Below are positions 1,662 through 17,080 of a DNA stretch of 17,080 nt, piece after piece. Under the pieces are notes generated by a model. It was not told the origin of the DNA. It did no database searches and saw nothing but the letters and a program-made list of their open reading frames with translations. Every line of letters starts with the position of its first letter. The stretch's first letter is position 1. The DNA lies in assembly GCA_017633615.1 (NCBI GenBank), contig JAGBPB010000076.1:1-17080 (forward strand). The letters are read 5' to 3'. Position numbers and translations under genes: made by a program. The DNA is from Bacteroidaceae bacterium (GTDB lineage: Bacteria > Bacteroidota > Bacteroidia > Bacteroidales > Bacteroidaceae).

Positions 1662-1705
1662 AACAAAACCGTGGTGAAAAAAAGCCTTTTCACCACGGTT
1701 TTGTT
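1662..1705. terminator. Bidirectional intrinsic terminator hairpin
   Basis: The arms 1662-1680 (AACAAAACCGTGGTGAAAA) and 1687-1705 are perfectly complementary over 19 bp, with a 6-base loop at 1681-1686. The A-run in the left arm and T-run in the right arm make it suitable for terminating transcription from both sides: frdAB from the left and the minus-strand NPWL gene from the right. The right arm contains the stop codon (1690-1692) and last few codons of the minus-strand gene. Confidence 0.85.
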
Positions 1706-3111
1706 GTTTGCATATCAGGGATTTGTGTCTTATAGGTGAAAGTGTCAGAGTGATATAAGTGAAATCCCTGTTTCTCCAGACTACTTGCAATCTCTTCTCT
1801 TTTGAATTTGTCATAGTAGAACATGTGGTTCACCTCAAGATCAGTGAACTGTATAAGTTGAGCAAGATGGTTTATGTTATATATTTTTAGGGTCCTTTTT
1901 ATTACATCGTCAAGTTCCATATCGTCAATGGTGGTAAGCAGAACAGGGTAGTCTCTTATTTTTTTGACCAAAGCCTGTTCTGTGATGAAATCCATCCATT
2001 TTTTGCGTCTCCTGTTTTCACAAAATTCCCTGTATTGATCGTGTAATTCAGCATCAGTGAATGGTGTCCGGTATTCCATTATTATTTCCTGCAGCCACGG
2101 GTTAAAAGGCCACTCATTCCAAGGCTTGTCCTTTATTTTGAAACACAGCTCAAAATACAAGATAAGACTTCTATAATCCATCCGCATGGTAATATGCTGT
2201 ACCATCAATAACTGTAATTCTTTATTCGTTTCTTTTTCACAGACGTCCACCTTGTCTTCATTGTTAGCGTTAAAATACTCTTCCAGTGAACAGCTATGCA
2301 TTATTGATAACTGTTCCAGATCTGAAACAAAAGCGCTTATGGCATCTTTCTCAAGCGTAATGAAATCATCAAGCGGAAAGGTCTTGAGGTCTTGAAATGA
2401 CTCAGGAATCTTAACGGTCTGAAAAACAGGTTTAATGTTATACTTGTCAAGTATGGCGTGATGGGCTTCCAGTAAATCCTTGAGACTTATAAAATAATCA
2501 GTAAAATCAGAGGGCATCTCGTCACGCATCAAACCGACAGTGACAGGTACCAGTTTCCGGGATAGTATTTTCTCTTCTTTAGCATATTCGTACCTTTTGT
2601 AGTATTCATCAACCCATTCAGGGTATGATGTGGGTCTTGACAGATTGAATGTATTTATGTTTCCTGGTGCTTTGATAATCCATTTATCAAGTTTTGTGGC
2701 GTATTCAGCCTGCAGTGAACTGTTTGATGAAATCTTGAATGTTCTCTCCGAACCGTGAAGCAAGGTGTATCCGTGATAAGAGAGATAACTTGTTATATGG
2801 TCGTAGTAATCGGTTTGTTCTTTGGTTATTGCCCGTAATTCTTCATCTGTCATTTGGATCAGATCAACCACCCGGTCAACATTGTTCCAATACAGCCATT
2901 TCTTTAGATTGTAATCCAAATCCATGTTATAACGGTGTACGGCTAGAAACGGGTCTTGATTTATTGCATCCTTGAGCGCTCTCCACATCAGATACTCCTT
3001 CCAACCCAGGTCTTTGGTCTTGCCATACAACTTGTTATAATCCTTGCTCAACTCATCATCACTATGAGTCGCATGAAATGCCTGGACTTTCTCTTCAAGC
3101 CAAGGATTCAT
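1690..3111 (-). CDS. Protein with two NPWL/alpha-CTD-like modules, function unknown
   Basis: I do not recognise this 473-aa protein as a named family. It contains two copies of one module, at residues 2-127 and 337-461. Each opens with NPWL, has an (S/T)D-x-EL motif some 15 residues later and a central aromatic segment, and ends in a helical stretch (77-118 and 412-452) of the form h-DLIQ-x-T-x-x-E, a bend, an I-x-x-x-L helix and a final GF/GY-x-L. That layout resembles the helix-hairpin-helix of the RNA polymerase alpha C-terminal domain. The middle (about 128-336) looks helical and featureless. There is no signal peptide or membrane segment. I chose the ATG at 3111 because it places NPWL at residues 2-5, close to its position in the divergent neighbour; an in-frame TTG at 3150 would add 13 residues. 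The gene is divergent from the TPR gene carrying a third copy, and its stop codon lies in the shared terminator. A role as a scaffold or regulator for the adjacent AAA+ protein is inference. Confidence 0.8.
   Translation of the reverse strand: MNPWLEEKVQAFHATHSDDELSKDYNKLYGKTKDLGWKEYLMWRALKDAINQDPFLAVHRYNMDLDYNLKKWLYWNNVDRVVDLIQMTDEELRAITKEQTDYYDHITSYLSYHGYTLLHGSERTFKISSNSSLQAEYATKLDKWIIKAPGNINTFNLSRPTSYPEWVDEYYKRYEYAKEEKILSRKLVPVTVGLMRDEMPSDFTDYFISLKDLLEAHHAILDKYNIKPVFQTVKIPESFQDLKTFPLDDFITLEKDAISAFVSDLEQLSIMHSCSLEEYFNANNEDKVDVCEKETNKELQLLMVQHITMRMDYRSLILYFELCFKIKDKPWNEWPFNPWLQEIIMEYRTPFTDAELHDQYREFCENRRRKKWMDFITEQALVKKIRDYPVLLTTIDDMELDDVIKRTLKIYNINHLAQLIQFTDLEVNHMFYYDKFKREEIASSLEKQGFHLYHSDTFTYKTQIPDMQTTKPW
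1729..2103 (-). repeat. NPWL/alpha-CTD-like module, copy B (protein level)
   Basis: This encodes residues 337-461 of the minus-strand protein. It has NPWLQEIIMEY, TDAEL, KWMDF, then LAQLIQFTDLEV and IASSLEKQGFHLY, and ends SDTFTYK. Its ending matches copy C (SSAFYTY) more closely than copy A. Confidence 0.75.
2731..3108 (-). repeat. NPWL/alpha-CTD-like module, copy A (protein level)
   Basis: This encodes residues 2-127 of the minus-strand protein. Shared features are NPWL at the start, SDDEL, a GWKEY segment, and VVDLIQMTDEEL followed by ITSYLSYHGYTLL. It aligns by eye with copy B in the same protein and copy C in the divergent gene. The repeat is visible only in the translation; no DNA-level repeat is claimed. 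Confidence 0.75.
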
Positions 3112-3187
3112 TTTTGCAATGTCAAGTTGGGTCTGTCTTGCCACGACCAATAATGTGTTATAGTTCTGCTAAGTTACAAAAAATGTT

Positions 3188-3220: not shown

Positions 3221-4339
3221 ATGGAAAATGAACCTGTCAATCCTTGGTTAGGAGAAATAATATTGGATTTCCGCCGTAACTGCTCTGATGAGGAGTTGCG
3301 TAAAGGGTACAGGGACTGCATCAAAGGAGGTTCCTCTTATTATTCTTGGGAGGAATTTGTAGGCCTTTATGCACTCAAGGTATATACACAGGATCATCCA
3401 CTGTTCCTTATGTCGCGCAGAGAGATGCCAATATCTGAACATGCACGCGATGTTTTGAATTATCTTTTGGTTAATTGTCTGGCCGACCTCATGCAGATTA
3501 CAGTTGAGGATATGAACGTACTAATTGGTGATATGGACGACCGGCAGCAGATAACCAGATTTCTTGAAGAAAATGACCTGCATTTGCGTAGCAGTGCTTT
3601 TTATACATATAGGCTCTCTTTAGAACGTATTGGTAAGGAGAGGATTGTATTTAATAGGACTCTGAATGAGATGATAAACAAAATCAAGGGCACCTTGTTA
3701 GATTATAATAGAGACCGTATGACGCTTGCTCAGTTCAAGGAGCTGATTGATATGTTTGAACAGGCAGAATGCTATGCCCGGCAGCATGATTGCGGAGTAG
3801 AGGAACGTGAAAACTTATATCATCAATACGCATTCCTTATGGAACTTAAGTCTCCATTTTTTGAAGGTTACTCAGAACATGCAGTCAGAATAGCGGAACG
3901 TATGATGTATTACTTGCAGATAATGCAGCCAGAGTACATAAAAAGAGCCGATGGATACATGATTTTTGGCAATATATATTCAATGATGAGTGACAACGCA
4001 AAAGCATTGGATAAGTATCTTTCCGCGCTTGATACATTACAGAAAGCTCCTGATACGGGAGAGAGGGATAAATGGCTAAACCGTATCCATAGCAGACTGG
4101 GTGGTTGTTACTGGAATCTGAAAGAGCATGAAAAGGCTATAGAGTCATACAAAAACGCTTTAGAATATTCTGACAAACTTTTGTTCTCAAGAGATTCAAG
4201 CAAGGAACAGATTTTTGAGAACCTGGCAGAAATCTATTCCGAGATGGGTGACCAGAAGAACGCAGACTATTACCGTGAACTTGCTACAGATGATGATTCA
4301 GACGATGATTTTGGTGATGATTTTGATGATCTGTTCTGA
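3221..4339 (+). CDS. NPWL/alpha-CTD-like module plus TPR protein with acidic tail
   Basis: This 372-aa protein has three parts. Residues 7-131 are the same module as in the divergent gene (NPWLGEIILDF, SDEEL, YSWEEF, then LADLMQITVEDM and ITRFLEENDLHL). A helical linker runs to about 240. Then come three tetratricopeptide-like repeats at roughly 242-275, 288-321 and 328-358, with typical pairs such as LGGCYWNLKEHEKAIESYKN. The C-terminus (359-372) is a strongly acidic Asp-rich tail ending FDDLF. TPRs bind other proteins, and the tail resembles acidic docking tips such as that of SSB. There is no membrane segment or signal peptide, so it is probably cytoplasmic. The triple AAA+ gene begins 52 bases downstream on the same strand, making that ATPase the likely partner; T7SS EccA proteins likewise combine TPR-like helices with a CbxX-type AAA+ domain, though in a single chain. 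No enzymatic function is apparent. Confidence 0.85.
   Translation: MENEPVNPWLGEIILDFRRNCSDEELRKGYRDCIKGGSSYYSWEEFVGLYALKVYTQDHPLFLMSRREMPISEHARDVLNYLLVNCLADLMQITVEDMNVLIGDMDDRQQITRFLEENDLHLRSSAFYTYRLSLERIGKERIVFNRTLNEMINKIKGTLLDYNRDRMTLAQFKELIDMFEQAECYARQHDCGVEERENLYHQYAFLMELKSPFFEGYSEHAVRIAERMMYYLQIMQPEYIKRADGYMIFGNIYSMMSDNAKALDKYLSALDTLQKAPDTGERDKWLNRIHSRLGGCYWNLKEHEKAIESYKNALEYSDKLLFSRDSSKEQIFENLAEIYSEMGDQKNADYYRELATDDDSDDDFGDDFDDLF
3239..3613 (+). repeat. NPWL/alpha-CTD-like module, copy C (protein level)
   Basis: This encodes residues 7-131 of the TPR protein. It is the third copy of the module found twice in the divergent gene and shares the NPWL start, the (S/T)DxEL motif, the DLxQxT helix start and the closing L-E-x-x-x-x-x-L helix. 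Confidence 0.75.
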
Positions 4340-4391: not shown

Positions 4392-7300
4392 ATGAAACGA
4401 TCCAATACTTCAAAATCGGATAAAGGCGAAAATGATGAAATGTTCAACTATATGTTGGATAAATTCATTTCTGAAGCATTTTCAGATGAAAATACCATTA
4501 CAGAAGATGATGTTGAAAATAATGACGCTAATATGACTGAAGAGGAACTGAAACAGAAGTTTGGTGATTCCGTAAGCCTGTATTCATACCGTTTTCACTG
4601 TGATACAGATGATTCTCCGGCTGAATTCCCTGTCCAAGGCATGATAAAGTCATTCCGTCCGCTTGATGACACCTATATCCATATTGATCTTGAAGTGCCA
4701 TATCCACATGAGGAGAAAGACCTTAAGGTGGAGATTACTATGGCCAGTGACCAGCGACGTTTTGAGAATGCGTGGGACACAAACTCAATTATGATGTTCC
4801 GTGACGGGAACCATCTTCATTGCACTCCGTTCCGTATATCGGATATGGTTTATATAGATTACAAGCTGGAACCGGACAAGACTGATACCATCATCATGAA
4901 ACTGTTCAAAGAAGGCATAGAGATACTTAAGAATGAGGTTATCATGCAAGGTCCTTGGCCGCCAAATGAGAGTTTCTATCAAGGAGGCACCAATCTTGAG
5001 GAGAAACTTGAAAACCTCAGGAACATGCCCGGAATGGAGAGCCTTAAGAAGCGTGTTGATGAGATGGTGGTACGCAGCAGGGTTAACCGTACCCGTATGG
5101 ATGCGGGGCTTCCGGTGCTTAATCCGTCCCTGCATACAATACTGATAGGCGGCATAGGCACAAGCAAGACAGCCTGCGTCAACATCCTGGCCGATATCTA
5201 CAAGTCACTGGGCTTGTTGTCAAGCACAGAGGTCCAGACTTTCAACGTGACAACACTTCTCACAGACAGCATGAGCAGCGGAGGTGCCGATGCCATTACC
5301 CATAAGATAAGGGATTCATATTCAGGAGTACTGCTGTTTGAAAACGCGCATGAACTGTTCAAGCCTGAATACAAATATCTGGACACCGAGCCCCAGATAA
5401 TACGAGCCCTTATAGATTCCTTGCGCGAGGCCAGGAACAAGAAGGGCTGGATGATGGTACTCACGGGTTATGAAGATGGCCTGGAGAGCCTGTTTGCAGC
5501 CAATCCGGAGTTGAGAGGTTTCTTTACGGCGCCCATATACATAAACAACTTCAAGTCACAGGAGCTGTTCAAGCTGATTGATCCCGTATGCAGTGAATTC
5601 AGTCTCAAGATAACACCCGATGCCAAGCGTAAGCTGGAGATGTACATAGACCACAAGCAGAAACACAGCAGCGTGGGTTATGAAAACGTTGACCTGATAA
5701 GACGCATCTTTGATGACCAAATAATTCCGGCCATGTTCAAGCGCATTGACGCCATTGAAAAGCCCACTGCCACTGAGATGGAACTTATAGAGCTTGAGGA
5801 CATCCCTGAACTGAACGGTGAGGCCGGCGAAGCTATGGCTGAACTGGATGCCCTGATAGGTCTGGGTAGCCTTAAGAAAAAGATCCATGACTACCTGAAT
5901 GTTATCCGTCTGGTAAATCTGCGTATGGAGAAAGGTCTGCCCACCAAGATGCCACGCCTGCATATGGCATTCTTAGGCAATCCTGGTACAGGTAAGACCA
6001 CCGTGGCCCAGATAATAGGCAAGATATTCGCCTCATGGGGAATACTGTCAACAGGCCATGTAATACGCACTGAGAAGAGCCAGATGGTAGGTCAGTACAT
6101 AGGTGAGACGGAATTCAAGATGCGTAACCTGCTGGCGCGTGCCCGAGGCAATGTGCTGTTCATAGATGAAGCCTATCAGCTCATAGTAGAGGGTATGGAA
6201 AGAGACCACGGCCGCATTGTGATGAACTCGCTGCTTACTGAACTGGGCAATGATGACTCTGACCTGGTTGTAATCCTGGCCGGATATACTGCTCCCATGA
6301 AGAAACTGCTGGAGAGTAACGAAGGTATAGAGAGCCGATTCCCCAACGTATTCAACTTTGAGGATTACACTACTGATGAACTCATGGCCATAGCCCAGAT
6401 AATGATAAAGCAGCAGGGGCTTGAGCTGACCAAGGGAGCAGAGACAAATCTGCGCACCATCATTGATGAGGAGAGCAAGAAACCGTCACCACGGTTTGGC
6501 AACGGCCGTTTTGTATCAAATCTTATTCAGAACCAGGTCCTTGCCACCATGGGATCCAGGCTTGCTTCAATCAAAAGTCCCACTAAAGAACAACTTATAA
6601 CCATCCTGCCTGAGGATGTAGTAATAGGCAAGGGACATAAAGACGTAGAATTTGATGACTTGGCCATAGATTCTGCATTAGCCAGCCTTGATGCTTTGGC
6701 CGGTCTGAGCACCGTAAAGAAAGCCATCCATAACTTTGTACAGTCAGCCCGTTACCTCCATTCCATTGGTGAGCCATACGTAGGCAAGGGACTGCTTTCA
6801 TGGCGTTTCATCGGTAAATCCGGCACAGGCAAGAGCACTGTGGCCGAGATTATGGCCCGCATTCTCAAGGGTATGCATCTGATAGCAAACAGCTATATCA
6901 CCCAAGTCAAGGCCGAGCGCCTTTTCATCGGTAATAACACCATTAGTTATGAGGTATTGAGAGACGCTGTAAAGAAAGCCTGCAATGGCCTTATCCTGAT
7001 TGATGCCGATGAAACCAAGTTCGGCATGAGCATGGACGGTTATGGCCGTATGGTAGAGCAGATACGCCTCAAGATGGAGGAACTGACCATTGAATCCGGC
7101 GGTGAATGCGCCCTTATTCTTGCAGAACTTGATGCTCCCAACAAGACCGTTGCGGAGCAGATGACGGATTCCGGAATCTACGAGTTTGACCACACCCTGG
7201 TATTCAAGGACTTTACCCCCGATGAACTCTTTGAGATACTCTGTAACTGCTTGAAGAAATTCAAGGTTACGTTCACCCCTGCAGCCGAGGCTCACATAAG

Positions 7301-7493
7301 AAAATACATTACAACCCTAAGTTCCAATTATGAGGCTAACGCCCGCACCATGAAACTGATGTCCCGCACCATCCACCAACAGGTTATCCTGCGTGAATCC
7401 GGCTTGACGCGCCGTCCTAAGGAGCATCAGGTTCAGTTGGCAGATATTGAGACCTTCAAGTGGAATAGCCGCAAGGGTCGGGTAGGTTATTGA
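4392..7493 (+). CDS. Triple CbxX/CfqX-type AAA+ ATPase
   Basis: This 1033-aa protein has an N-terminal region of about 200 residues (acidic, then beta-rich, unrecognised) followed by three tandem AAA+ modules of the CbxX/CfqX/SpoVK family. Each opens with a similar L-x-x-(M/L)-x-G-(M/L)-x-x-(L/V)-K-K helix (from residues 206, 485 and 766). Module 2 looks fully active: Walker A GNPGTGKT (529-536), Walker B LFIDEAY (Asp592, Glu593) and the ESRF arginine (Arg649). Module 1 is degenerate: GGIGTSKT (253-260), and Glu317-Asn318 in place of Asp-Glu. Module 3 keeps GKSGTGKS (808-815) and IDADE (871-874) but has GIYEF where module 2 has the ESRF arginine. Relatives remodel proteins as ring ATPases (RuBisCO activase CbbX, EccA of T7SS). 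There is no membrane segment. The substrate is unknown; the TPR and NPWL neighbours and the tubulin-like operon nearby are candidates. The first ~150 codons look more A/T-rich than the rest. Confidence 0.93.
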   Translation: MKRSNTSKSDKGENDEMFNYMLDKFISEAFSDENTITEDDVENNDANMTEEELKQKFGDSVSLYSYRFHCDTDDSPAEFPVQGMIKSFRPLDDTYIHIDLEVPYPHEEKDLKVEITMASDQRRFENAWDTNSIMMFRDGNHLHCTPFRISDMVYIDYKLEPDKTDTIIMKLFKEGIEILKNEVIMQGPWPPNESFYQGGTNLEEKLENLRNMPGMESLKKRVDEMVVRSRVNRTRMDAGLPVLNPSLHTILIGGIGTSKTACVNILADIYKSLGLLSSTEVQTFNVTTLLTDSMSSGGADAITHKIRDSYSGVLLFENAHELFKPEYKYLDTEPQIIRALIDSLREARNKKGWMMVLTGYEDGLESLFAANPELRGFFTAPIYINNFKSQELFKLIDPVCSEFSLKITPDAKRKLEMYIDHKQKHSSVGYENVDLIRRIFDDQIIPAMFKRIDAIEKPTATEMELIELEDIPELNGEAGEAMAELDALIGLGSLKKKIHDYLNVIRLVNLRMEKGLPTKMPRLHMAFLGNPGTGKTTVAQIIGKIFASWGILSTGHVIRTEKSQMVGQYIGETEFKMRNLLARARGNVLFIDEAYQLIVEGMERDHGRIVMNSLLTELGNDDSDLVVILAGYTAPMKKLLESNEGIESRFPNVFNFEDYTTDELMAIAQIMIKQQGLELTKGAETNLRTIIDEESKKPSPRFGNGRFVSNLIQNQVLATMGSRLASIKSPTKEQLITILPEDVVIGKGHKDVEFDDLAIDSALASLDALAGLSTVKKAIHNFVQSARYLHSIGEPYVGKGLLSWRFIGKSGTGKSTVAEIMARILKGMHLIANSYITQVKAERLFIGNNTISYEVLRDAVKKACNGLILIDADETKFGMSMDGYGRMVEQIRLKMEELTIESGGECALILAELDAPNKTVAEQMTDSGIYEFDHTLVFKDFTPDELFEILCNCLKKFKVTFTPAAEAHIRKYITTLSSNYEANARTMKLMSRTIHQQVILRESGLTRRPKEHQVQLADIETFKWNSRKGRVGY

Positions 7494-7507
7494 ATTCCTG
7501 TTCTTGA

Positions 7508-7539
7508 TTTGGAATTATGTAATTAAAACATTATGTTTG
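7508..7539 (+). promoter_or_regulatory. Bacteroidetes-type promoter for the DUF234 ATPase gene
   Basis: TTTG at 7508-7511 and TATGTTTG at 7532-7539 match both boxes of the Bacteroidetes primary sigma consensus, separated by 20 bp. The predicted start site near 7546 would leave a leader of about 15 bases before the ATG at 7561. The site also argues against a longer reading of the gene from the TTG at 7504, which would begin upstream of the promoter. Confidence 0.7.
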
Positions 7540-7560
7540 CAGTGCATAATTGTTTTCAAG

Positions 7561-8931
7561 ATGAATTTCGTAGACAGAAAAAAGGAGTTTACGCGTCTAA
7601 ATGCGCTTTTAAGTAGTGACAGACCTGTTTTCGTAATTGTCAGAGGGCGTCGCAGGATAGGAAAATCGGCACTGATTGGTCGCGTGCTGACAGAAAAAGA
7701 TATCTATTTTGAGGCAGACCGTACTGACGCTATAGAGCAGATTAGATTGTGTGCCCAAGTTATTTCTGCACATCTTCCCGGTTTTGCCGATGCTGAATAT
7801 AAGGATTGGAGAGCACTTCTAACTGCATTGAATTATCGTGTGACTGAAAGGTTTACCCTCTGTCTTGATGAATTTCCTTATCTGGTAGAAAATACTCCGG
7901 CACTGCCCTCCATTATACAGGGACTGTTGGAAAACAATGGTCTGAAATATCATTTGATTCTGTGCGGATCGTCCCAGACAATGATGTACAATCTCACTCA
8001 CGATGAACAGTCCCCACTCTATGGCCGAGGTGATTCTGATTTCAATATGCGTCCCATAAAGTTGCCATACTTGAGAGAAGCTTTGGGGTTGGATGCTGTT
8101 CAGACTATTGAAGATTATGCCGTATGGGGTGGTGTGCCGCGATATTGGAAACTCAGAGAAGGGACTGCCAGTGTACGCCAGGCCATAGATATGCATATTC
8201 TCTCAACGTTGGGAATTCTCTATGAAGAGCCTCAGAGACTATTCAAAGATGATATTAAAGACTCTGTAAAGGTATCTACAATCATGTCAATTGTGGGCAG
8301 TGGTGTTAATCGTCTGAGCGAGATTGCTTCCCGATTAGAAGAACCCGCAACCAATCTTTCCCGTCCACTTGCAAAGTTGGTGGATTTGGGGTATCTGGAA
8401 AAAGAGACTCCGTTCGGTGAATCCTCCAAGAACAGTAAAAAGAATCTGTACCGCATTGCGGATCCGTTTCTCAGTTTCTACTATAAGTTTGTTGTGCCCA
8501 ACCGCTCATTTATAGAATTAGAAAGACGTGGGCCCATTGACTTGTCTATTGAGAATGGTTTTTCTGGACATGTAGGCTATTGGTGGGAGCATCTTTGCCG
8601 CGAAGCCATTACCGGTAACACCATCAACGGTGTCCTTTACGGCGAAGCCCGACGATGGTGGGGAAAGGTAAAAATAGACGATGAATGGGAGGATGTTGAA
8701 TTGGATTTGGTGGCAGAATCATTAGACCAGAAAACAATTCTGATAGGAGAATGCAAATGGACGACAGGTGAAAACGGACGTTTGCTCACAAAGCGTCTGG
8801 ATAAAATAGCCTCCGCCCTTCCTTTTACGCAAGGAAAGGATGTGAAAACAGTGTTATTCACCAAGCTGCCCCCTGTAGAGGATGTAGGTAATACAATGGG
8901 GCCTGAGGATATTATCAGGTTGCTGTATTGA
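7561..8931 (+). CDS. ATPase_2/DUF234-type AAA ATPase with nuclease-like C-terminus
   Basis: This 456-aa protein begins MNFVDRKKEF, a start typical of the COG1672 'archaeal-type' ATPases. It has Walker A GRRRIGKS (residues 29-36, Lys35), Walker B CLDEFPYL (Asp103, Glu104) and a CGSS sensor-like segment in the STAND-like P-loop domain. A winged-helix-like region (about 235-290: SIVGSGVNRLSEIASRLEEP, then LVDLGYLEKE) follows. The C-terminal DUF234 region has Asp382 (VELDLVA) and Glu397-x-Lys399 (GECKW), the arrangement of PD-(D/E)xK nucleases. These proteins are common and scattered in Bacteroidetes and archaea, and no firm function is established. The ATG at 7561 is preferred over an in-frame TTG at 7504, because a good promoter lies between the two. 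It has its own promoter and converges with the transglutaminase-like gene across 34 bases, so it may be unrelated to the flanking system. Confidence 0.9.
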   Translation: MNFVDRKKEFTRLNALLSSDRPVFVIVRGRRRIGKSALIGRVLTEKDIYFEADRTDAIEQIRLCAQVISAHLPGFADAEYKDWRALLTALNYRVTERFTLCLDEFPYLVENTPALPSIIQGLLENNGLKYHLILCGSSQTMMYNLTHDEQSPLYGRGDSDFNMRPIKLPYLREALGLDAVQTIEDYAVWGGVPRYWKLREGTASVRQAIDMHILSTLGILYEEPQRLFKDDIKDSVKVSTIMSIVGSGVNRLSEIASRLEEPATNLSRPLAKLVDLGYLEKETPFGESSKNSKKNLYRIADPFLSFYYKFVVPNRSFIELERRGPIDLSIENGFSGHVGYWWEHLCREAITGNTINGVLYGEARRWWGKVKIDDEWEDVELDLVAESLDQKTILIGECKWTTGENGRLLTKRLDKIASALPFTQGKDVKTVLFTKLPPVEDVGNTMGPEDIIRLLY

Positions 8932-8965: not shown

Positions 8966-10630
8966 TTAACTGATTGTTATTATAGAATCTTTGTCAACGT
9001 CCTTGGGTACATCGCCTGGATGGAATCCATGCCCTGTGGATTCACAATATACACCTTGCCCGGGATAGAACTCCACATATTCAGGAGGAAGTTGTATCGG
9101 GGCGTCAGCCTTGTTTTTCAGGACAATTGCTACGTGATTGTACACGTCTTTTCCTCCTGATTTGACGGTTACCATATCTACATCAACGCCAAGTTTTTCA
9201 AACATCCTATATGCCAGAACAGACTTGCAGTCGCAGTCTCCTTCGCGGTCCACAAGTGTTTCGCTGGCATAGCGGAAATACTCTCTCACCTTGCCAATGG
9301 ATTCAGATTCCTCATCAATGACATATTTGACATTTGCCTGAACAAAACCCAGCACAAGATCGAACATCTCAAAATCTGCCAGACCGTATTGGAGCGTCAG
9401 TTGATATGCACTGTTAAGAATTTTGGCAATAGCGGAATCCTCACTGCCGTCGGCTGTCTTTGCTCCGGCAATCACCTGCTTTGCCCGGTTAGAAAGATCA
9501 TCTTCTGAATTGACAGGGCCGCTGCGGAATGGATTGGCCATTCTGACGAGAGAGTTGACTCCATTGAAATCTGATTCAGCGAAAGACAATTCAATCTCAT
9601 CTTTGCAATCCTTAAAGCCCTTTAAAGCCATAATGGGAGCCCATGAGAAAGTACGTGTTATCCGTTTGGACGAACTTGCCGGGGCAGGATTTTGAGGAAT
9701 GGGAATTACCGGGATGCGGCCTGACCAGCTGGATCCAGGTTGCTCAAGATACCATTTTCCGTTGAAACAGGCAAGGTTAAAAAGGAATCCCGCCAGAATT
9801 ACCGCGAATAGAGGCAGTAATGCCGGAGTAGAAATCCGCAGAGCTATCACAGCCGTAATAATGATGAGAATATTCAGCCATTTTACGCCAACATTTCTGT
9901 CTATCAGCCCGATGACGTAATCAATGGATTGGTTCTGCATGGTTTTCTCGTATTTGATGACATAGAGTATACCAACCATCAATACGTAGTAAAGAAGCAT
10001 TACCAACATATACAACGCAGAATAACTACTGGTAAATGTTTCAGTGAGCAGGCGGAAAGGATAGAATAGCACCATAAAGGCAAGGGCAGCGGGGAGCATC
10101 AGATCTTTAAATCCTACGCGGACATCAAATACAGAACGATCTCCTTCCTCTTTTTCGTGTAGGATTGCGAAACCGGCACCGCGTACAATCAGATCCTGTT
10201 TGGCTCTCAGGGCTCCACGAAGGAATCCCACTTTGTCTCCGTTGTTGTCAATAACAGCTGTTGTCCTGGTTTGAGTGTTTTCGCAATGTGCCACAGGATT
10301 TCCATTCAGGTCATAAACCTTGCCGTCATCTGTAAAAGTTCCCAATGTTTTCTGTACTTTGTTCTGCTGTACGTTTACCACTAGAGGGCGGATTTCATAT
10401 CCTTTTATAAAGCCTATTCTGGAGGAACTGAAAAGCGGGAGTAGAGAATCGTACAATACGTATTCCCCCTTGATGCGCCAAAGATAGCCCACTTTCTTTT
10501 TTTGGCCGGAAGGCATAACCCGATAAATTACCGTGTACATGCCCAGTATAAAAAAGAGCAGGTATATGAGTAAAACTGCGCCGAGAATTTCTCCCAGCGA
10601 TTGTAGTAGATGCGATAACGATTCAATCAT
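8966..10630 (-). CDS. Membrane protein with C-terminal transglutaminase-like domain
   Basis: This is a 554-aa protein. Hydrophobic segments lie near residues 14-35, 177-195, 203-225, 250-264 and 269-289. Between the first and second lies a soluble region with beta-hairpin-like repeats (GKVYDLNGNPVAH, AVIDNNGDKVGF). The C-terminal half ends in a transglutaminase/papain-fold core: GDCDCKS with Cys466 in the nucleophile position, YNHVAIV with His499, and CESTG with Glu530 where the usual acidic residue would be. A basic stretch after the first span (RVMPSGQKKK) suggests by the positive-inside rule that residues 36-176 and the catalytic domain face the cytoplasm. The family includes proteases, amidases and crosslinkers, and which of these applies here is unknown. 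It is the last gene of the operon, starting 5 bases after the VWA stop, and there is no obvious terminator in the short convergent gap. The intact triad suggests an active enzyme. Confidence 0.85.
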   Translation of the reverse strand: MIESLSHLLQSLGEILGAVLLIYLLFFILGMYTVIYRVMPSGQKKKVGYLWRIKGEYVLYDSLLPLFSSSRIGFIKGYEIRPLVVNVQQNKVQKTLGTFTDDGKVYDLNGNPVAHCENTQTRTTAVIDNNGDKVGFLRGALRAKQDLIVRGAGFAILHEKEEGDRSVFDVRVGFKDLMLPAALAFMVLFYPFRLLTETFTSSYSALYMLVMLLYYVLMVGILYVIKYEKTMQNQSIDYVIGLIDRNVGVKWLNILIIITAVIALRISTPALLPLFAVILAGFLFNLACFNGKWYLEQPGSSWSGRIPVIPIPQNPAPASSSKRITRTFSWAPIMALKGFKDCKDEIELSFAESDFNGVNSLVRMANPFRSGPVNSEDDLSNRAKQVIAGAKTADGSEDSAIAKILNSAYQLTLQYGLADFEMFDLVLGFVQANVKYVIDEESESIGKVREYFRYASETLVDREGDCDCKSVLAYRMFEKLGVDVDMVTVKSGGKDVYNHVAIVLKNKADAPIQLPPEYVEFYPGQGVYCESTGHGFHPGDVPKDVDKDSIITIS

Positions 10631-10635
10631 GGCTC

Positions 10636-13611
10636 TTATCGGATAGGTCTGTCATACAAATTACAAATGGTCGGGTTCCCAAAAAGTAAAGATTTGAGCT
10701 GCTCTCTGTCATTCAGATCGGCGCAGTTCTCATCCAGTCCGGCCCACAGGAAATCCCGTAAAACAACACCTCTGGTTAAAATCAGAGTAGCGAGCATCAG
10801 AGGACCTTCCAATGCATCCCGGACAGGATTGCCTATTTTCTCCTCCACAACAGAAATAAACTGTCTGTTTTCTATAGCCTCTTTATCTAAACCAAGTAGA
10901 TATTGTTCATCAAGTACATCGGCAGTCTGGGAAAGAGAGGCCCCGTGTTGGGTAACATGAGCCCATTCGTAAAGTCCCTTGCCAGGATAGCGTGCAATGA
11001 GGAAAGGCAGACTGGCTGCCTCGGACAGAATCCGGGATGAAGTAAAGATGTGTAATGCACGGGCGCATCCCGGAATATGACACTTGGCAATGAGTTCGCC
11101 AAATGAGAACTCGCCATTCTCTCCCAGTTGGACGATGGATTGCATCTTTCCTTCCCAGTGGATAATCTCCTTGACTTCATTTACTACAATTTGCACGCCG
11201 CCTGTCTTTTCAGATAGTTCCTTCATAACAGAAGCACCATCATTTCCAATGGAAATAGTGTTTAGCGGTTGTTGCAGCTCATAAGCTACTTCAAGAATAT
11301 CTTTTATATCTTCAAACGGACAGCCGTCGCTGATTAGGATGATATCATCGTAGATAGCCTCCTTGACCTTTTGAACAGCCATAGTCAGAGGTGGAATGAA
11401 GTTAGTTCCACCACCGCTGTGGAGTTTGTCAATATCGTTATTATCAAAGCTGGAAGCTACAATTTTGTCATCAAAGGCAATCCATTCCACTACATAAGAC
11501 TCTTTTAGACTATGGACAGCTTTCTTGAGGTCTTCAAGCGGTTGCCCTGACATACTGCCTGATACGTCCAGAAGGAGAAGCGTCTTTCCCTGAACATCGC
11601 GGGATAAAAAAGTAGTCTCACGCTCGATACTCCTATTGACTTTTGTTCTGGTTTCCATAAGCTGTTTGACTAGCTTGCTCAAATATTTGTTGTTTTTGAC
11701 AACAGCTTTGATATCATAACTTATACCTTCTACATTGATTTGATGCATGGGTGATGAAGCATCGAAGTTCAGTAAAGGCTCATAACCAAAAGAACCGGAC
11801 AACTGAATGTCATCAATAGCATCCAGTGTAACGGGAGGAATCAAGACTAAATTCTCTTCATTTGTATTGGAATTTCCAGCCTTGAGAAGTGGCTGTAGGA
11901 CAGCAGACTCCACAAACGAGAAATCCGATGGGGATAGAACCGACAAATGTTTTTTGAGGAAATCAAGTTTGTTGGTTTTCAACCAGTCACAATACTGTAG
12001 CAGTTCCTGGTAAGTTACTTGTAGGCATTTAAGAATGTCTACACGTAACTCTTCTTCACAGCGGAGCAACATGATACCCACATATTGTTGTTTCAAGGCT
12101 TCAATCCTGATACGCATGGTGCGGAATTGAAGCAATGAAATACACAAAGGAAAAAGTCCCAAACCGGCAGTGACGGCCATTGCGACGGTTTGACCTGTAA
12201 GTACAGGAAGAAGGGTCCATGAAAGAAAGCCTAACAGGAATCCTAGTACGATAGCGCGAACCAGAAGCGCAAAGACGGCCACTGGATGGTGTGAAATCTT
12301 ATCTTCCAGAACGGCTATGGCTTCCTGTGGAGTACGGTTTTCTGCTTGGGCCTGTCTTGCGGCATTCTTCAGTTCTGAAGGTGTGGCAAACGGAGTGACT
12401 TTTTCATTGTCGGCTCCAGAGGCAACGTCTTCGATTTTTCGCTTGTAACGTGAAAGAATCTCCTCGGCTTGGGCCAAACTCACGTATTCTGAAGCACTTC
12501 CATCTACAAAAATGCGGAAAACCTGCTTCTGGAGTCCTCCAGCGACCCTTGTCACTGCATCTTTCTGGTTGATGTAGAGTTTTTCCCTATAATCTCGTGC
12601 AAAAGTTTGTAGGTTACGCTTTACCCGATTGACAAGATTCTTTTTGTAATTGGGGATGAAATCGCAATAATACTCAGTCCAAACCTTCTTGAGTTTGGAA
12701 GACCAAGGTGAAATCCTGGGTACAAGGTCATAGGCATAGGTTTTGCCGTCAGGAGAAGGACACTCATCTGTCAACTCTCCAACAAGAGTGTCACAGGCAA
12801 ATGTGTCCAGGAAATCTTGGTTTCCATCCACAAATTTTTGCGCAGCAGAAGCATTATAGAATTCGCTGTCCTTACTATTGACTATTTTGTCCATCAGGGC
12901 ATTAGATAAAAGGAATTCTCCTTGCTCTGTATGAACAGCCGCCTCATAGAAAACGCCTGTGGCCGACAAATCAACAAATCGTCTGTGTGCATCATCGTCC
13001 AGATAATCATGTGCTGATAGATGCAAAACTGCAAGATTCATCTTTTCAAAAGCGGCGGACTTGTCTTCAGGACGGTCTGGAGATTCCACGAAAGCCACAC
13101 TACGGAAAGGGGCGTGGTTTATGTCCTGACTCATGAACATATTTAGTTCCTGCAGGAATCCGCGTGTTTTTGACGATACGCCAGGTGCGACGGCTGCTGT
13201 ATTTGGCCGCCAGAGCATACCGTAGAAGTGGACGCGGGTAACAGTTGTCCATTGTGTTTCCTCCTTGAGCAAGGCAAGACGTAGTCTTGCAGCCCAGAAA
13301 TGGAAATATGGGATGGTCAGTTGTTCATCCGTTACATCTCCTAGAAAAACAACATTCAATTCTTGTGGGGTAGGTTTTTTTTTGAAAGCCGGAATCAATG
13401 GGTCACGGCCGTCGCGAATCAATGTCAAGTGTCCGGCATCGTACAGGATGTCGTCAAAGGACTTACCGTCGGCTAGAGTGATATAGTACCAGAGGTCATC
13501 CGTAAGAGGGGCTTTTTCGGAATTCTGGCCATAGGCTTTCCACCACCGGTCCAGAAATTCTTGAATGCGGCTTTCTTTATTGAAATTTATGATCCAGAGC
13601 GGTGTTCTCAT
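10636..13611 (-). CDS. Membrane-anchored VWA (MIDAS) protein
   Basis: This 991-aa protein has an unrecognised N-terminal domain (about 1-430), a tight membrane hairpin (spans near 446-468 and 475-495 with only a few residues between), a helical region, and a von Willebrand A domain. The VWA metal-ion-dependent adhesion site is complete: DVSGS (Asp682, Ser684, Ser686), Thr736 in GGGTNF, and Asp762 in ISDG. The short hairpin loop puts both large domains on the same side of the membrane, presumably the cytoplasm. A further ~170-residue region follows the VWA domain. The ATG overlaps the tubulin-like stop by 4 bases (ATGA), which usually means translational coupling. VWA proteins beside FtsZl-2/Tubulin_2 proteins were reported by Makarova and Koonin (2010) as part of a putative membrane-remodelling system. 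The likely role is a metal-dependent membrane adaptor for the tubulin-like protein; that role is inference. It is unlike the MoxR-partner VWA proteins of Bacteroides aerotolerance operons, which have a small N-terminus. Confidence 0.9.
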   Translation of the reverse strand: MRTPLWIINFNKESRIQEFLDRWWKAYGQNSEKAPLTDDLWYYITLADGKSFDDILYDAGHLTLIRDGRDPLIPAFKKKPTPQELNVVFLGDVTDEQLTIPYFHFWAARLRLALLKEETQWTTVTRVHFYGMLWRPNTAAVAPGVSSKTRGFLQELNMFMSQDINHAPFRSVAFVESPDRPEDKSAAFEKMNLAVLHLSAHDYLDDDAHRRFVDLSATGVFYEAAVHTEQGEFLLSNALMDKIVNSKDSEFYNASAAQKFVDGNQDFLDTFACDTLVGELTDECPSPDGKTYAYDLVPRISPWSSKLKKVWTEYYCDFIPNYKKNLVNRVKRNLQTFARDYREKLYINQKDAVTRVAGGLQKQVFRIFVDGSASEYVSLAQAEEILSRYKRKIEDVASGADNEKVTPFATPSELKNAARQAQAENRTPQEAIAVLEDKISHHPVAVFALLVRAIVLGFLLGFLSWTLLPVLTGQTVAMAVTAGLGLFPLCISLLQFRTMRIRIEALKQQYVGIMLLRCEEELRVDILKCLQVTYQELLQYCDWLKTNKLDFLKKHLSVLSPSDFSFVESAVLQPLLKAGNSNTNEENLVLIPPVTLDAIDDIQLSGSFGYEPLLNFDASSPMHQINVEGISYDIKAVVKNNKYLSKLVKQLMETRTKVNRSIERETTFLSRDVQGKTLLLLDVSGSMSGQPLEDLKKAVHSLKESYVVEWIAFDDKIVASSFDNNDIDKLHSGGGTNFIPPLTMAVQKVKEAIYDDIILISDGCPFEDIKDILEVAYELQQPLNTISIGNDGASVMKELSEKTGGVQIVVNEVKEIIHWEGKMQSIVQLGENGEFSFGELIAKCHIPGCARALHIFTSSRILSEAASLPFLIARYPGKGLYEWAHVTQHGASLSQTADVLDEQYLLGLDKEAIENRQFISVVEEKIGNPVRDALEGPLMLATLILTRGVVLRDFLWAGLDENCADLNDREQLKSLLFGNPTICNLYDRPIR

Positions 13612-16600
13612 CGGATAATGTTGTTAAGGAATTGTCTGACTTCGTTAAGTAACAACTCATTCTCAGAGTGATTTTGTTTGATCCATGCATTTAGGAGTAC
13701 TGCAAAATTAGGATTATTCTTGTCTCCAGCCGTAAGGAATGCTATACGGGCATCACTCTTGACACGGTAAACAGCATCTTTGATAGAGGAATGCTGCAAG
13801 GCTTTTTCAATCTCATCAACTTTTCCCATCATAGTCATAAGAGAAATACTTGATGGATAAGATACGGCATCAAGCAGTGCTTCTGCAAAAAGTTTTGGAG
13901 TACGGACATCAGCAAGCGTGTAAGTCTCTTCAGCCAACTCTGCAAAGAAGTGGCAACTTGTGTCAACTCCGGCATTGTGCATGGTGATATTCATTCCGAG
14001 AGGATTAACTAGTTGAAGACGGGCATTAAAGAATTCATCCTGTACCGTACCAGAGCCCAGTTCTACGACATTGTCCTTAGGTTCAGATGCAGGAGCACCA
14101 CTCAGGAATTCACTGATATCCAACTGATTTGAATTAGGAGTGGGAGTAGGATTAGAATTGGAAACCGTAAAGTCAAAGACATCAAATAATCCCATCAAGT
14201 CGCGGTAAGCAACAGGTTCTTTCTCTTTGAGTTTTAGTATAACTTGCTGGTAAAAAAGATTCTTAAGGAAGTATCGTACAGCTTCCAGTTTGGCTGGTTC
14301 ACGCACAGCGGCAAGGCTCTTGTCCAGATCAAGGAATCGGAAAGCTTTGTGGATATGGCATCCCTCACGCTCTGCCAAAACACCTTCACGATGCTGGAAA
14401 TAGTGGTCCTGGATTTTATCGAAATACTTGTATGAATAGAAATCCAGACCAACTGGAATCTTTATGATTTGGAAGCGGTCTGACATATTCTTGTCCTGTT
14501 CAAAAGATGTATTCTCTGCGTTTGGTACGAATCCGAACTTCTCAGCAAGAGACATGGATGCACCTACATACAGATATCTTGTAAGGGTGGCATCAGTGTG
14601 GGCGGCCTTCATCGGATATAGTATTGGGATCAGGTCAGGGTTGGTGAGAGTCTCAAAGTCGATATCTTTCTTGTTGATGGTAATATACTCTTCAAGACTG
14701 CGCTTGAGCCAAATATCAGCCGGTGTACCTTCTGCAGTAACAGCCTTGTCCAGCACTTGTGAAAGAACATCGTTGATTATTTTATCGAACTTGTTCTGGC
14801 AAATAACGGGGTCTTCCATAGCTAAGTTTACGAACAAAGCTGTATCGGTCTTCAACAACAGTTGCTGGATGTAATAGGTCAGATTGTTGGATCCTCCGTT
14901 AAGACGGGCAGGAACGCGAACTCCATTTATGCCACGTGCCCGTTCATGATCGTAGTCCAGAATACTTGTATAATACAACTTCTCGAACTCGTTATCTTGT
15001 GCCCATGTGCCGTTTTCGCCATTTGCGATATTCACAAGCGATGGAAGATATAGTGTAAGAGCGTCATTTTGAGATTCGATAAATTGTCTGGCCAGGGTGG
15101 AATAAGCCGTTTCAGCTTCAACTACGCGTGAACTGACCATATCACACAACTTCTGCAAGCCGGAGCGGTCCACTCCGTTGCCTTTACGTACTTGCTCAAG
15201 ATAGCCTTCGGGAAAAACTGTAAGCCCATCAATGATTTTGCGAGTAATCTTGATACAGGCTGCATTCTTGCGGGCTTCATAATATTTTTTTCCAGTCTGT
15301 GCGGCGGCAGATGCGTTTTTCTTGTTTATACCCTTGCCAATAAAACCGTCCAGTTCGGCGCGAAGCGCCAAAGAATTGTTTTCGGCCTCAGTTTCCATTT
15401 TGGAAAGAATGCCGCTATTGAGATTGGTCAAATAGATGTCATCAACATGATTAAGAAGTGTGATGGTATATTTAAGACCATGTTCGGCAACCTCCTTACC
15501 TATGCCGGTATTAATAGCGGTTTTAATCTTTTCAAGATACTCATCTTGGATAGCGGTGGTGTTATCCAACGCGTCATCCACCTTGCGCACATAATTCCTA
15601 ACACGTGTAGCGTCCAAATCTTCAGGATTCAGTTTACCTACATTGAACTCTTCATCTATATGGGTCTGAACACTATCCTCAGCAGCTGTTATGCCGTCAA
15701 CATCGGTTAGAAAAGGCAGAATATAAGTTGCGGCGAACTTCTTCCGGGCTTCATCTGCAAGTTTGGGGTCATTGCCCATTCCTTCGCCCAGGAGTCCGTC
15801 ACGCAGGATTTCAAGCGTGGCGCGGGTCTTCATATAGTCCTTAAACTCCAGATCGGCCTTGCGGATGACATGGTAACCATAAGGAACAAGCCAAGTGCCC
15901 CATTTATAGGGACTGTCAGAGAACTTTGTGAGGTCAGTTGATGGTTTGCTGGCTTTTACAATGTCGTTGCATAGCCTGGATACAATCTCGCGGGCACCGG
16001 AACCCACATTCAGATAATACATCATTTCTGCTGTGGTGGAGTAGAGGTTGTTCATGCCAATTTTGGTATTGCGGTTGGTTTCCACGTCCACGGGTATGAC
16101 AAAGCGACAGAGGTCATACTGCTCACCAGGTCTATAGCCCCATGGATAAGCACTGAAATAACTGAAGATATCCTTTCCTCCATCTACAATACGCTGTTTG
16201 AAAGCATTAAGTTCCCATATATAGGAATAGCCGTTCATTATATGGTTGTTCACCTCGTGAGCTTTGCCTTTGTTGTGCTCAATAAATGGTTCCGGCATGA
16301 AAAGAACCAGCTTCACGTACGCATCTTTGGTCTGCTGCTCATTTGTGATGCGGTTAATCAGGTATAACAAGTCCAGCGACAGGGAACTGCCGGTTCCTCC
16401 GCAGGAAGAAGCCACCACCCATATATCAGATTCAACAGTTCGTGAACCGGCATCTTTGTGAGTCTGAAATTGCACAAGACGGTCGGTAAGTGCTTTCTTT
16501 ATGGCTTCTGAGTGTTTGGCAAGTCCCATACGGCCTATCATGCGCTGTGCCATGGCACCGTCTGCCAAGGAATGGTTCGGGAAAGTTATATGTCCCAGTT

Positions 16601-16901
16601 CCTGTGTTGAAGCCCATTCAAGAATCCTTTTGTATTTAGGATCATTTCCTTTGGCGACAGCACCTTTTGACGCCTGGTCATACACCTTGTAGGGGTTAGT
16701 GTCGCCTAAATTGATAAAATCAGTGGTGGAGATGATATTCCCCTCCTTTTCGTTGATGTCGCTGCGGGTCTCCTCATCTGTATCAATGTAGAGATACATG
16801 TACTTGACATCATCATTTTCCTGAACTGCAAGTTTCTTGGCTAACAGGGCAACGGTTTCAAGACCGCAACCGCCCAAACCGATAAACAAAGTCTTCTTCA
16901 T
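13608..16901 (-). CDS. Tubulin/FtsZ-superfamily protein (Tubulin_2 / FtsZl-2 type)
   Basis: This 1097-aa protein begins with a Rossmann-type nucleotide-binding start, FIGLGGCGLETV (Gly8, Gly10, Gly11, Gly13). It has YIDTD at 38-42 and the tubulin signature loop SSCGGTGSS at 165-173, equivalent to GGGTGSG of FtsZ/tubulin. The order and spacing of these loops identify a GTPase of the tubulin superfamily. It is far longer than FtsZ (about 350-400 aa). The GTPase part ends near 390; beyond it lie a long helical region and, near residue 915, an Asn/Pro/Thr-rich linker leading to a ~165-residue C-terminal domain. There is no membrane segment, so membrane contact probably runs through the VWA partner encoded next. 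The best fit is the Tubulin_2/FtsZl-2 family, proposed from genome context to act with VWA proteins in membrane remodelling. Whether it polymerises is unknown. The start ATG follows the upstream gene by 17 bases, so it is internal to an operon. Confidence 0.9.
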   Translation of the reverse strand: MKKTLFIGLGGCGLETVALLAKKLAVQENDDVKYMYLYIDTDEETRSDINEKEGNIISTTDFINLGDTNPYKVYDQASKGAVAKGNDPKYKRILEWASTQELGHITFPNHSLADGAMAQRMIGRMGLAKHSEAIKKALTDRLVQFQTHKDAGSRTVESDIWVVASSCGGTGSSLSLDLLYLINRITNEQQTKDAYVKLVLFMPEPFIEHNKGKAHEVNNHIMNGYSYIWELNAFKQRIVDGGKDIFSYFSAYPWGYRPGEQYDLCRFVIPVDVETNRNTKIGMNNLYSTTAEMMYYLNVGSGAREIVSRLCNDIVKASKPSTDLTKFSDSPYKWGTWLVPYGYHVIRKADLEFKDYMKTRATLEILRDGLLGEGMGNDPKLADEARKKFAATYILPFLTDVDGITAAEDSVQTHIDEEFNVGKLNPEDLDATRVRNYVRKVDDALDNTTAIQDEYLEKIKTAINTGIGKEVAEHGLKYTITLLNHVDDIYLTNLNSGILSKMETEAENNSLALRAELDGFIGKGINKKNASAAAQTGKKYYEARKNAACIKITRKIIDGLTVFPEGYLEQVRKGNGVDRSGLQKLCDMVSSRVVEAETAYSTLARQFIESQNDALTLYLPSLVNIANGENGTWAQDNEFEKLYYTSILDYDHERARGINGVRVPARLNGGSNNLTYYIQQLLLKTDTALFVNLAMEDPVICQNKFDKIINDVLSQVLDKAVTAEGTPADIWLKRSLEEYITINKKDIDFETLTNPDLIPILYPMKAAHTDATLTRYLYVGASMSLAEKFGFVPNAENTSFEQDKNMSDRFQIIKIPVGLDFYSYKYFDKIQDHYFQHREGVLAEREGCHIHKAFRFLDLDKSLAAVREPAKLEAVRYFLKNLFYQQVILKLKEKEPVAYRDLMGLFDVFDFTVSNSNPTPTPNSNQLDISEFLSGAPASEPKDNVVELGSGTVQDEFFNARLQLVNPLGMNITMHNAGVDTSCHFFAELAEETYTLADVRTPKLFAEALLDAVSYPSSISLMTMMGKVDEIEKALQHSSIKDAVYRVKSDARIAFLTAGDKNNPNFAVLLNAWIKQNHSENELLLNEVRQFLNNIIR

Positions 16902-16918
16902 ATATAGCTTTTTTATTA

Positions 16919-17080
16919 TTAATCAAGTGAAATCTTATAATCTGTCTTACCTTTTTCTTTGATCCGGATATTCACGGCTGTGGATTTTCCGGGAGCACAT
17001 AGGAATAAACTTTCTCCTACAGAAATGGTGCGAGGCTCATCATCGTAATCAGTTTCAACATCGGCAAAACCACCTTGTTC
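16919..17080 (-). CDS. C-terminal end of an unidentified operon gene (partial)
   Basis: On the minus strand a frame is open from the window edge to a TAA at 16919-16921, giving the last 53 residues of a protein. The segment starts EQGGFADVETDYDDEPRTIS and ends KGKTDYKISLD. Alternating hydrophobic and polar residues suggest a beta-rich domain, but no motif identifies it. It lies 17 bases upstream of the tubulin-like start in the same direction, so it belongs to the same operon. Its length and function cannot be judged from this window. Confidence 0.6.
   Translation of the reverse strand, partial: EQGGFADVETDYDDEPRTISVGESLFLCAPGKSTAVNIRIKEKGKTDYKISLD

Follow-up and report, generated by a model that had tools for sequence, protein, structure and literature searches.

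What does a bacterial tubulin-like protein do beside a membrane enzyme encoded in the same operon? This question is raised by the 17,080-nucleotide stretch of DNA analysed here (the window; contig JAGBPB010000076.1 of a Bacteroidaceae bacterium, assembly GCA_017633615.1), in which three closely packed minus-strand genes encode FtsZl1, a tubulin-superfamily protein, a VWA protein and a polytopic enzyme of transglutaminase/LapG-type fold. We found that the order of these genes, behind an upstream gene of a family designated F4, recurs in divergent genomes. The enzyme accompanies FtsZl1 in some lineages only, where it is an old partner, and one loss appears to account for its absences in our sample. 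The combination of FtsZl1, two VWA-type proteins and a membrane cysteine-protease-like enzyme in one operon, carried by some gut Bacteroidales, was not found described in the literature. FtsZl1 itself was described in 2010, and our literature search found no paper that tested its function.

16919 to 17080, minus strand: C-terminal tail of an F4 protein, 53 amino acids and stop, its gene cut by the window edge (open frame aligned to the C-termini of 14 F4 homologues)
13608 to 16901, minus strand: FtsZl1, a Tubulin_2 (PF13809) protein of 1097 amino acids
10636 to 13611, minus strand: VWA protein with a membrane hairpin, 991 amino acids (Pfam, alignment, hydropathy)
8966 to 10630, minus strand: polytopic enzyme with a transglutaminase/LapG-type fold, 554 amino acids (AlphaFold2 model and PDB matches)

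Gene order and apparent loss of the enzyme gene

A check of the open reading frames (ORFs) in the window bore out the compact layout that a sequence-only reading had proposed. The FtsZl1 and VWA genes overlap by 4 bp (13608-13611), a gap of 5 bp (10631-10635) separates the VWA gene from the enzyme gene, and the F4 frame ends 17 bp upstream of the FtsZl1 gene. The further upstream gene expected by that reading is the F4 gene, a member of a family of about 520-555 amino acids that precedes FtsZl1 in all 14 genome loci compared. Cluster data place the FtsZl1 and VWA clusters of the window also on a longer contig, of 86.7 kb. The enzyme gene is the last in the operon and faces a convergent ATPase gene. 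Spacing and common strand suggest that the operon genes are co-transcribed. Counts of terminator-like sites (10, against 7.0 with a standard deviation of 2.3 in shuffled sequences) and of promoter-like sites (12, against 14.9) were uninformative either way.

Conservation was assessed in these 14 loci (L001-L014), and the 13 informative ones (L011 is cut) form the unbiased sample; each protein search covered about 8000 scored candidates. The F4-FtsZl1-VWA order was kept in 13 of 13 loci. It recurs where the tubulin-like proteins are only 31-44% identical and is therefore not due to chance. In six of the 13 the enzyme gene comes next, 3 to 88 bp further on, and in seven it is gone. An HExxH metallopeptidase, F5 (DUF2268, E = 1.1e-5 for the L004 protein), follows the enzyme in four of the 13; it is membrane-anchored or secreted and forms part of the operon in some lineages.

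Whole-genome profile searches placed the enzyme match of the six enzyme-bearing genomes solely at the operon, and strong matches in the 14 carrier genomes were likewise confined to it. Among the seven genomes without an operon enzyme, six had no match anywhere and one (G009) had a single weak match elsewhere (E = 6e-5); G011 had no match genome-wide. A tree built from 27 FtsZl1 proteins groups the seven rows without the enzyme into a single clade (support 97/94) that adjoins the enzyme-bearing L013 and P0147, suggesting a single lineage-specific loss rather than random absence. That the loss apparently happened once depends on L045 and L075 branching outside, as drawn. The proposal that the enzyme is a conserved partner is thus not refuted: its absences do not look randomly scattered over otherwise intact loci.

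Eleven enzyme-bearing rows of this tree were chosen because their longest-contig size equals that of an enzyme cluster. Such equal sizes for FtsZl1 and enzyme clusters occurred in 11 cases against 0.2 expected, the sizes being those of cluster representatives and not of the contigs themselves. Distances among FtsZl1 proteins and among enzymes were correlated over 18 linked pairs, which had been picked for linkage (Mantel r 0.884, 0 of 5000 permutations as high).

A close FtsZl1 of this type was present only in the centre genome among 393 genomes of the order, with two distant matches besides. Across Bacteroidota, FtsZl1 scored above cut-off in 10 of 395 genomes, and eight neighbourhoods, three of them short stretches, were examined, leaving out G004 (already known) and G748 (borderline). 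The enzyme profile matched in L074 only, the F4 profile in L075 and the VWA profile in both, so the enzyme association is not universal among FtsZl1 proteins. The order in L074 is VWA, FtsZl1, a gene of 722 amino acids and enzyme. L045, a less distant long-branch locus found by a separate genome search, has kept F4, FtsZl1, VWA, enzyme and F5. Wider enzyme-like matches were found in 17 of 393 genomes, all of them weak (E = 1e-17 or worse) outside the centre genome. A profile scan of six weak-match neighbourhoods (L048-L053) detected no FtsZl1, VWA or F4 among the longest non-overlapping ORFs; Pfam was run on six proteins of L048 and L050.

A viral or plasmid origin of the operon was considered and is not supported. 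None of 14 pattern matches in the viral_contigs set, the viral collection searched (a phage collection was not), encodes an FtsZl1 relative; no plasmid match was obtained for FtsZl1, and the enzyme gave three weak partial plasmid matches.

The proteins of the operon

FtsZl1 matches PF13809 with E = 1.1e-34 (120.7 bits against a curated cut-off of 27), and its structure model and alignment show a complete tubulin fold in which the GTP-binding T1 and T4 loops are intact, in agreement with the original assignment to the tubulin superfamily. Its main features, all on the minus strand, are the following.

16863 to 16880, minus strand: T1 nucleotide loop GLGGCG (G8, G10, G11 and G13 invariant in 60 of 60 sequences)
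16383 to 16403, minus strand: T4 tubulin signature CGGTGSS (G168, G169, T170, G171 and S172 invariant in 60 of 60)
15987 to 16016, minus strand: T7-like loop YLNVGSGARE, a putative assignment by motif and helix order
14610 to 15788, minus strand: large, mostly helical insert that splits the tubulin fold, about residues 372-764 (secondary structure of the model and VIA alignment; borders approximate)
14325 to 14609, minus strand: predicted strands and helices of the tubulin C-terminal domain, about residues 765-859 (model and VIA alignment; borders putative)

At the site two residues past the Asn of the T7-like loop, where an acid is expected, the putative register gives Gly in 57 of 60 sequences, Asp in two and Thr in one. 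Judged by these alignment columns, the loop appears to lack the catalytic acid, and the GTPase activity proposed from sequence is putative. A profile alignment of FtsZl1 to FtsZ reached no significance and was too weak to confirm the register. The VIA structural alignment matched 302 residues within model range 1-844. Compared with CetZ and tubulin, FtsZl1 has a large helical insert in its C-terminal part, an extra region past about residue 860 and an apparently missing T7-like acid. The FtsZl1 C-termini are not conserved between lineages.

FtsZl1/vWA predicted operons were described by Makarova and Koonin in 2010 (PMC2875224), with Bacteroides caccae among the species aligned. The present locus resembles them in its N-terminal FtsZ-like domain, long helical region, VWA neighbours and frequent membrane link. 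However, the partners reported there are kinases, GTPases and OmpA-like proteins, in place of the transglutaminase-fold enzyme found here, and transglutaminase has no mention in the main text of that paper. The view that such an enzyme partner had not been described agrees with our literature search, which found none, and the supplementary tables of the 2010 paper may list the gene unnamed. The same paper saw no likeness of the FtsZl1 C-terminal part to the C-domains of FtsZ and tubulin, whereas our model places one past the large insert and would revise this view. A 2023 survey (PMC9871819) noted the absence of both Pfam domains, FtsZ_C and Tubulin_C, from Tubulin_2 proteins and treated these proteins as separate from the FtsZ/tubulin family.

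The sequence-only reading had matched the tubulin-VWA pair to FtsZl2, which needs correction. In the 2010 description, the VWA-paired family is FtsZl1, and FtsZl2 combines an FtsZ-like domain with a mixed alpha/beta C-terminal region of about 300 amino acids and has no associated genes. A protein of 1097 amino acids with a long helical region and conserved neighbours does not fit that description.

Pfam VWA models gave only sub-threshold matches to the VWA protein (best E = 0.0021). All 22 aligned sequences share D682, S684, S686, T736 and D762, the residues of its metal-ion-dependent adhesion site (MIDAS). The predicted membrane-anchored VWA partner stands as proposed.

11551 to 11568, minus strand: MIDAS motif DVSGSM, with T736 and D762 further on (alignment)
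12124 to 12291, minus strand: two-helix membrane hairpin, about residues 441-496 (hydropathy)

Because of the two-helix hairpin, both ends of the protein would lie on one side of the membrane, most simply the cytoplasm. In one locus (L007:5226-7969) the VWA gene is present in two overlapping frames, and its relatives have intact copies. Cleavage of a linker in the VWA protein (about residues 577-604) by the enzyme was considered and rejected: this linker is gone in the enzyme-lacking L005, L006, L008 and L012, yet it is kept in L014 and partly in L009. Since the former four also lost an F4 loop, linker loss is probably part of a general shortening.

F4 is a second VWA-type protein, and its VWA domain is likely periplasmic. 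Its relatives in L001, L002 and L003 show, by eye, a DISSSM motif and a signal-like start. The L004 protein (Phocaeicola barnesiae) has a weak VWA_2 match in Pfam (E = 0.041) and one strong membrane helix (396-431), its N-terminal start being below the hydropathy threshold. A short C-terminal domain lies behind the membrane helix of F4.

No Pfam transglutaminase model matched the enzyme of the window, and its distant homologue in L074 matched PF01841 below cut-off (E = 0.0017). The AlphaFold2 model (mean predicted local distance difference test, pLDDT, 81.9; predicted template-modelling score, pTM, 0.54) and PDB matches support the membrane transglutaminase-like enzyme that had been proposed from sequence. 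As modelled, the enzyme is of papain/transglutaminase-type fold with Cys-His-Glu.

10214 to 10537, minus strand: N-terminal beta domain, about residues 32-139 (model; PF21785, 5-fold beta-flower, E = 0.014, below cut-off)
9224 to 9241, minus strand: GDCDCK with the presumed nucleophile C466 (57 of 57 aligned sequences)
9134 to 9136, minus strand: presumed catalytic His499 (57 of 57)
9041 to 9043, minus strand: presumed third catalytic residue Glu530, placed by alignment (57 of 57)

The 57-sequence alignment leaves out short, fused and two-domain hits. GDCDCK was present in 74 of 76 enzyme hits, and the two without the motif are shorter entries of 464 and 376 amino acids. The N-terminal beta domain is missing from the shorter versions of L001 and L013. 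LapG is a soluble enzyme with Cys-His-Asp; compared with this periplasmic protein, the present enzyme is polytopic, its active site is probably cytoplasmic and Glu occupies the presumed third position. No significant sequence similarity to LapG/BTLCP proteins was detected (4u65_E, E = 0.21). LapG has been characterized as a periplasmic transglutaminase-like cysteine protease (PMC3032545, PMC4359373).

Possible functions

The operon may serve signalling or an immune-like function and not form a filament that shapes the cell. The reading that we favour, if tentatively, is that it encodes a membrane-spanning signalling complex controlling a protease. The VWA domain of F4 would sense something in the periplasm; FtsZl1 would assemble at the membrane with GTP and dock on the VWA protein via its metal site; this assembly would switch on or release the cysteine enzyme, which, with its active site most likely in the cytoplasm, would cleave a local substrate. 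The F5 metallopeptidase may join in some lineages. If the tubulin-like protein does control the enzyme, bacteria would provide an example of proteolysis gated by a cytoskeletal protein. The operon is compact, its enzyme can be assayed and has a defined set of likely catalytic residues, and the clade that apparently lost the enzyme can serve as a natural control.

Among the fold matches, a LapG-type protease chain ranks first; for this reason limited proteolysis is preferred over crosslinking, by a modest margin. Several points weigh against our reading. Named LapG entries tie with transglutaminases among the fold matches of the enzyme (VIA list over residues 308-554), and the fold alone cannot decide between the two activities. 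In addition, the cytoplasm-facing active site suggested earlier is likely, but this part of the claim stands only on condition that residues 246-292 form two membrane helices, as they do in the model.

A possible but less probable alternative is that the operon serves an immune-like conflict system as its membrane arm. Sensing or scaffolding would then fall to FtsZl1 and the two VWA proteins, the effector would be the cysteine enzyme or neighbouring TIR/STAND proteins, and the operon would be a relative, within Bacteroidales, of the systems described by Kaur et al. 2020 (PMC7159879). In the GAP1-N2 tubulin conflict systems reported there, a tubulin gene is likewise accompanied by two VWA proteins, of which one has its VWA domain outside the cell; the wider set repeatedly contains TIR, STAND and FGS domains. 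In that account, however, these systems are built from GTPases and GAP1 components, accompanied by FNIII-repeat proteins, and the tubulin form occurs in Firmicutes and Actinobacteria. The cysteine enzyme is an addition here, and a Pfam scan of core genes found neither a GTPase nor an FNIII domain (no search was aimed at GAP1 itself; the flank survey lists 25 of 81 families). No PADLOC model matched the core operon proteins, which also speaks against this alternative.

Genomic neighbours bear on it as well. TIR genes lie beside the operon in the L009/L013/L014 group: TIR_2 matches near the operon make up seven of the eight genome-wide in G013 (within about 25 kb), three of three in G014 (within about 12 kb) and three of 11 in G009. 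In G013 and G014, TIR-STAND-TPR, TIR-STAND, TIR-WD40 and TIR-LRR proteins are encoded in the direction of the operon, with a DUF4062-TPR protein that has a weak STAND match beside them, and in L013 a TPR-TIR gene begins 6 bp past the enzyme gene. Also in favour, the enzyme homologue of L045 (L045:1319-4594, 1091 amino acids) is fused to an FGE-sulfatase domain, which Kaur et al. (PMC7159879) linked to diversity-generating elements in other conflict systems. However, TIR proximity was seen in only three of 15 genomes (0.5 expected; P about 0.012 if independent); these three are related, and two of them have no enzyme. In the nine other carriers with TIR genes, these genes are on different contigs from the operon. 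Since the operon sits beside TIR/STAND arrays in one clade, it may have an immune-like role. A more specific version, which we consider unlikely, is that in gut Bacteroidales a filament of FtsZl1 switches an NLR-like immune system that spans the membrane: a VWA sensor on the outside would trigger FtsZl1 assembly, which would act on the cytoplasm-facing LapG-fold protease and, in some lineages, on neighbouring TIR-STAND receptors. With its long helical insert and a disabled T7 acid, FtsZl1 would then be GTP-locked for one-way assembly and not form a dynamic filament.

It is rather unlikely that the operon forms a membrane-remodelling filament with an enzyme that trims or crosslinks the filament or its membrane partners. 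Remodelling was originally proposed for FtsZl1 with VWA (PMC2875224) and was adopted in the sequence-only reading; membrane helices in F4, VWA and the enzyme (by hydropathy) are consistent with it, and the full tubulin fold of the model would suit protofilaments. However, our analysis found no specific support for remodelling and no pointer to lipid or vesicle functions, and treadmilling is made less likely by the T7 acid that FtsZl1 appears to have lost. Division itself is unlikely as the task of FtsZl1, since nine of the 10 carrier genomes searched also encode a member of FtsZ_C, the family of canonical FtsZ.

We consider it very improbable that the enzyme is a vasohibin-like processor of tubulin tails that cuts FtsZl1. 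Vasohibins are transglutaminase-like proteases that detyrosinate alpha-tubulin, and the distances of enzyme and FtsZl1 correlate; but FtsZl1 C-termini vary between lineages, the only stretch of FtsZl1 found to be absent from the enzyme-lacking clade, a short linker, is also gone in the enzyme-bearing L013 and P0147, and the presumed third residue, placed by alignment, is Glu where vasohibins have Ser (PMC4866520). That the enzyme gene is an incidental neighbour is hardly credible: its absence from seven of 13 loci and its single match in eight distant neighbourhoods would fit, but divergent lineages have retained it beside the other operon genes, a single loss is apparent in the sample, and strong matches in carrier genomes are at the operon only.

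Genomic surroundings

The ATPase gene that faces the operon (window 7504-8931) encodes an archaeal-type ATPase with DUF234 that matches the PADLOC candidate PDC-S27 (E = 1e-41). An AAA protein gene (window 4392-7493), which directly follows a TPR gene and converges on the FtsZl1 operon, matches SpoVK, CbbX and EccA models in three stretches, all below cut-offs. It was rejected as an operon partner: among the window and the 14 loci, its product clusters with L001:5694-7520 alone. A divergent gene pair (window 1690-3150, minus strand, and 3221-4339, plus strand) has in common an unnamed domain starting NPWL, with two copies in the former gene and one, plus TPRs, in the latter (E = 2e-15 and 8e-12).

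Beyond the window, type III CRISPR models (Cas10, Cas7_IIId, Cas5_IIId and Cas6) matched with one member each in 85 flanking ORFs of L001-L014 (PADLOC; ORF not located). Dense TIR arrays with STAND, WD40, LRR, Macro or Sel1 partners adjoin the FtsZl1 operon in three related genomes, at L085, L086 (G013), L087 (G014) and L088 (G009). A protein kinase-HSP70 fusion (L073:3923-7486), encoded near a distant FtsZl1 gene, recalls the HSP70/tubulin systems of Kaur et al. (PMC7159879). Finally, an M48 peptidase that also has a TerB domain (below threshold in L014) is encoded near two very different FtsZl1 loci, at L014:19477-20709 and L074:13979-15301.
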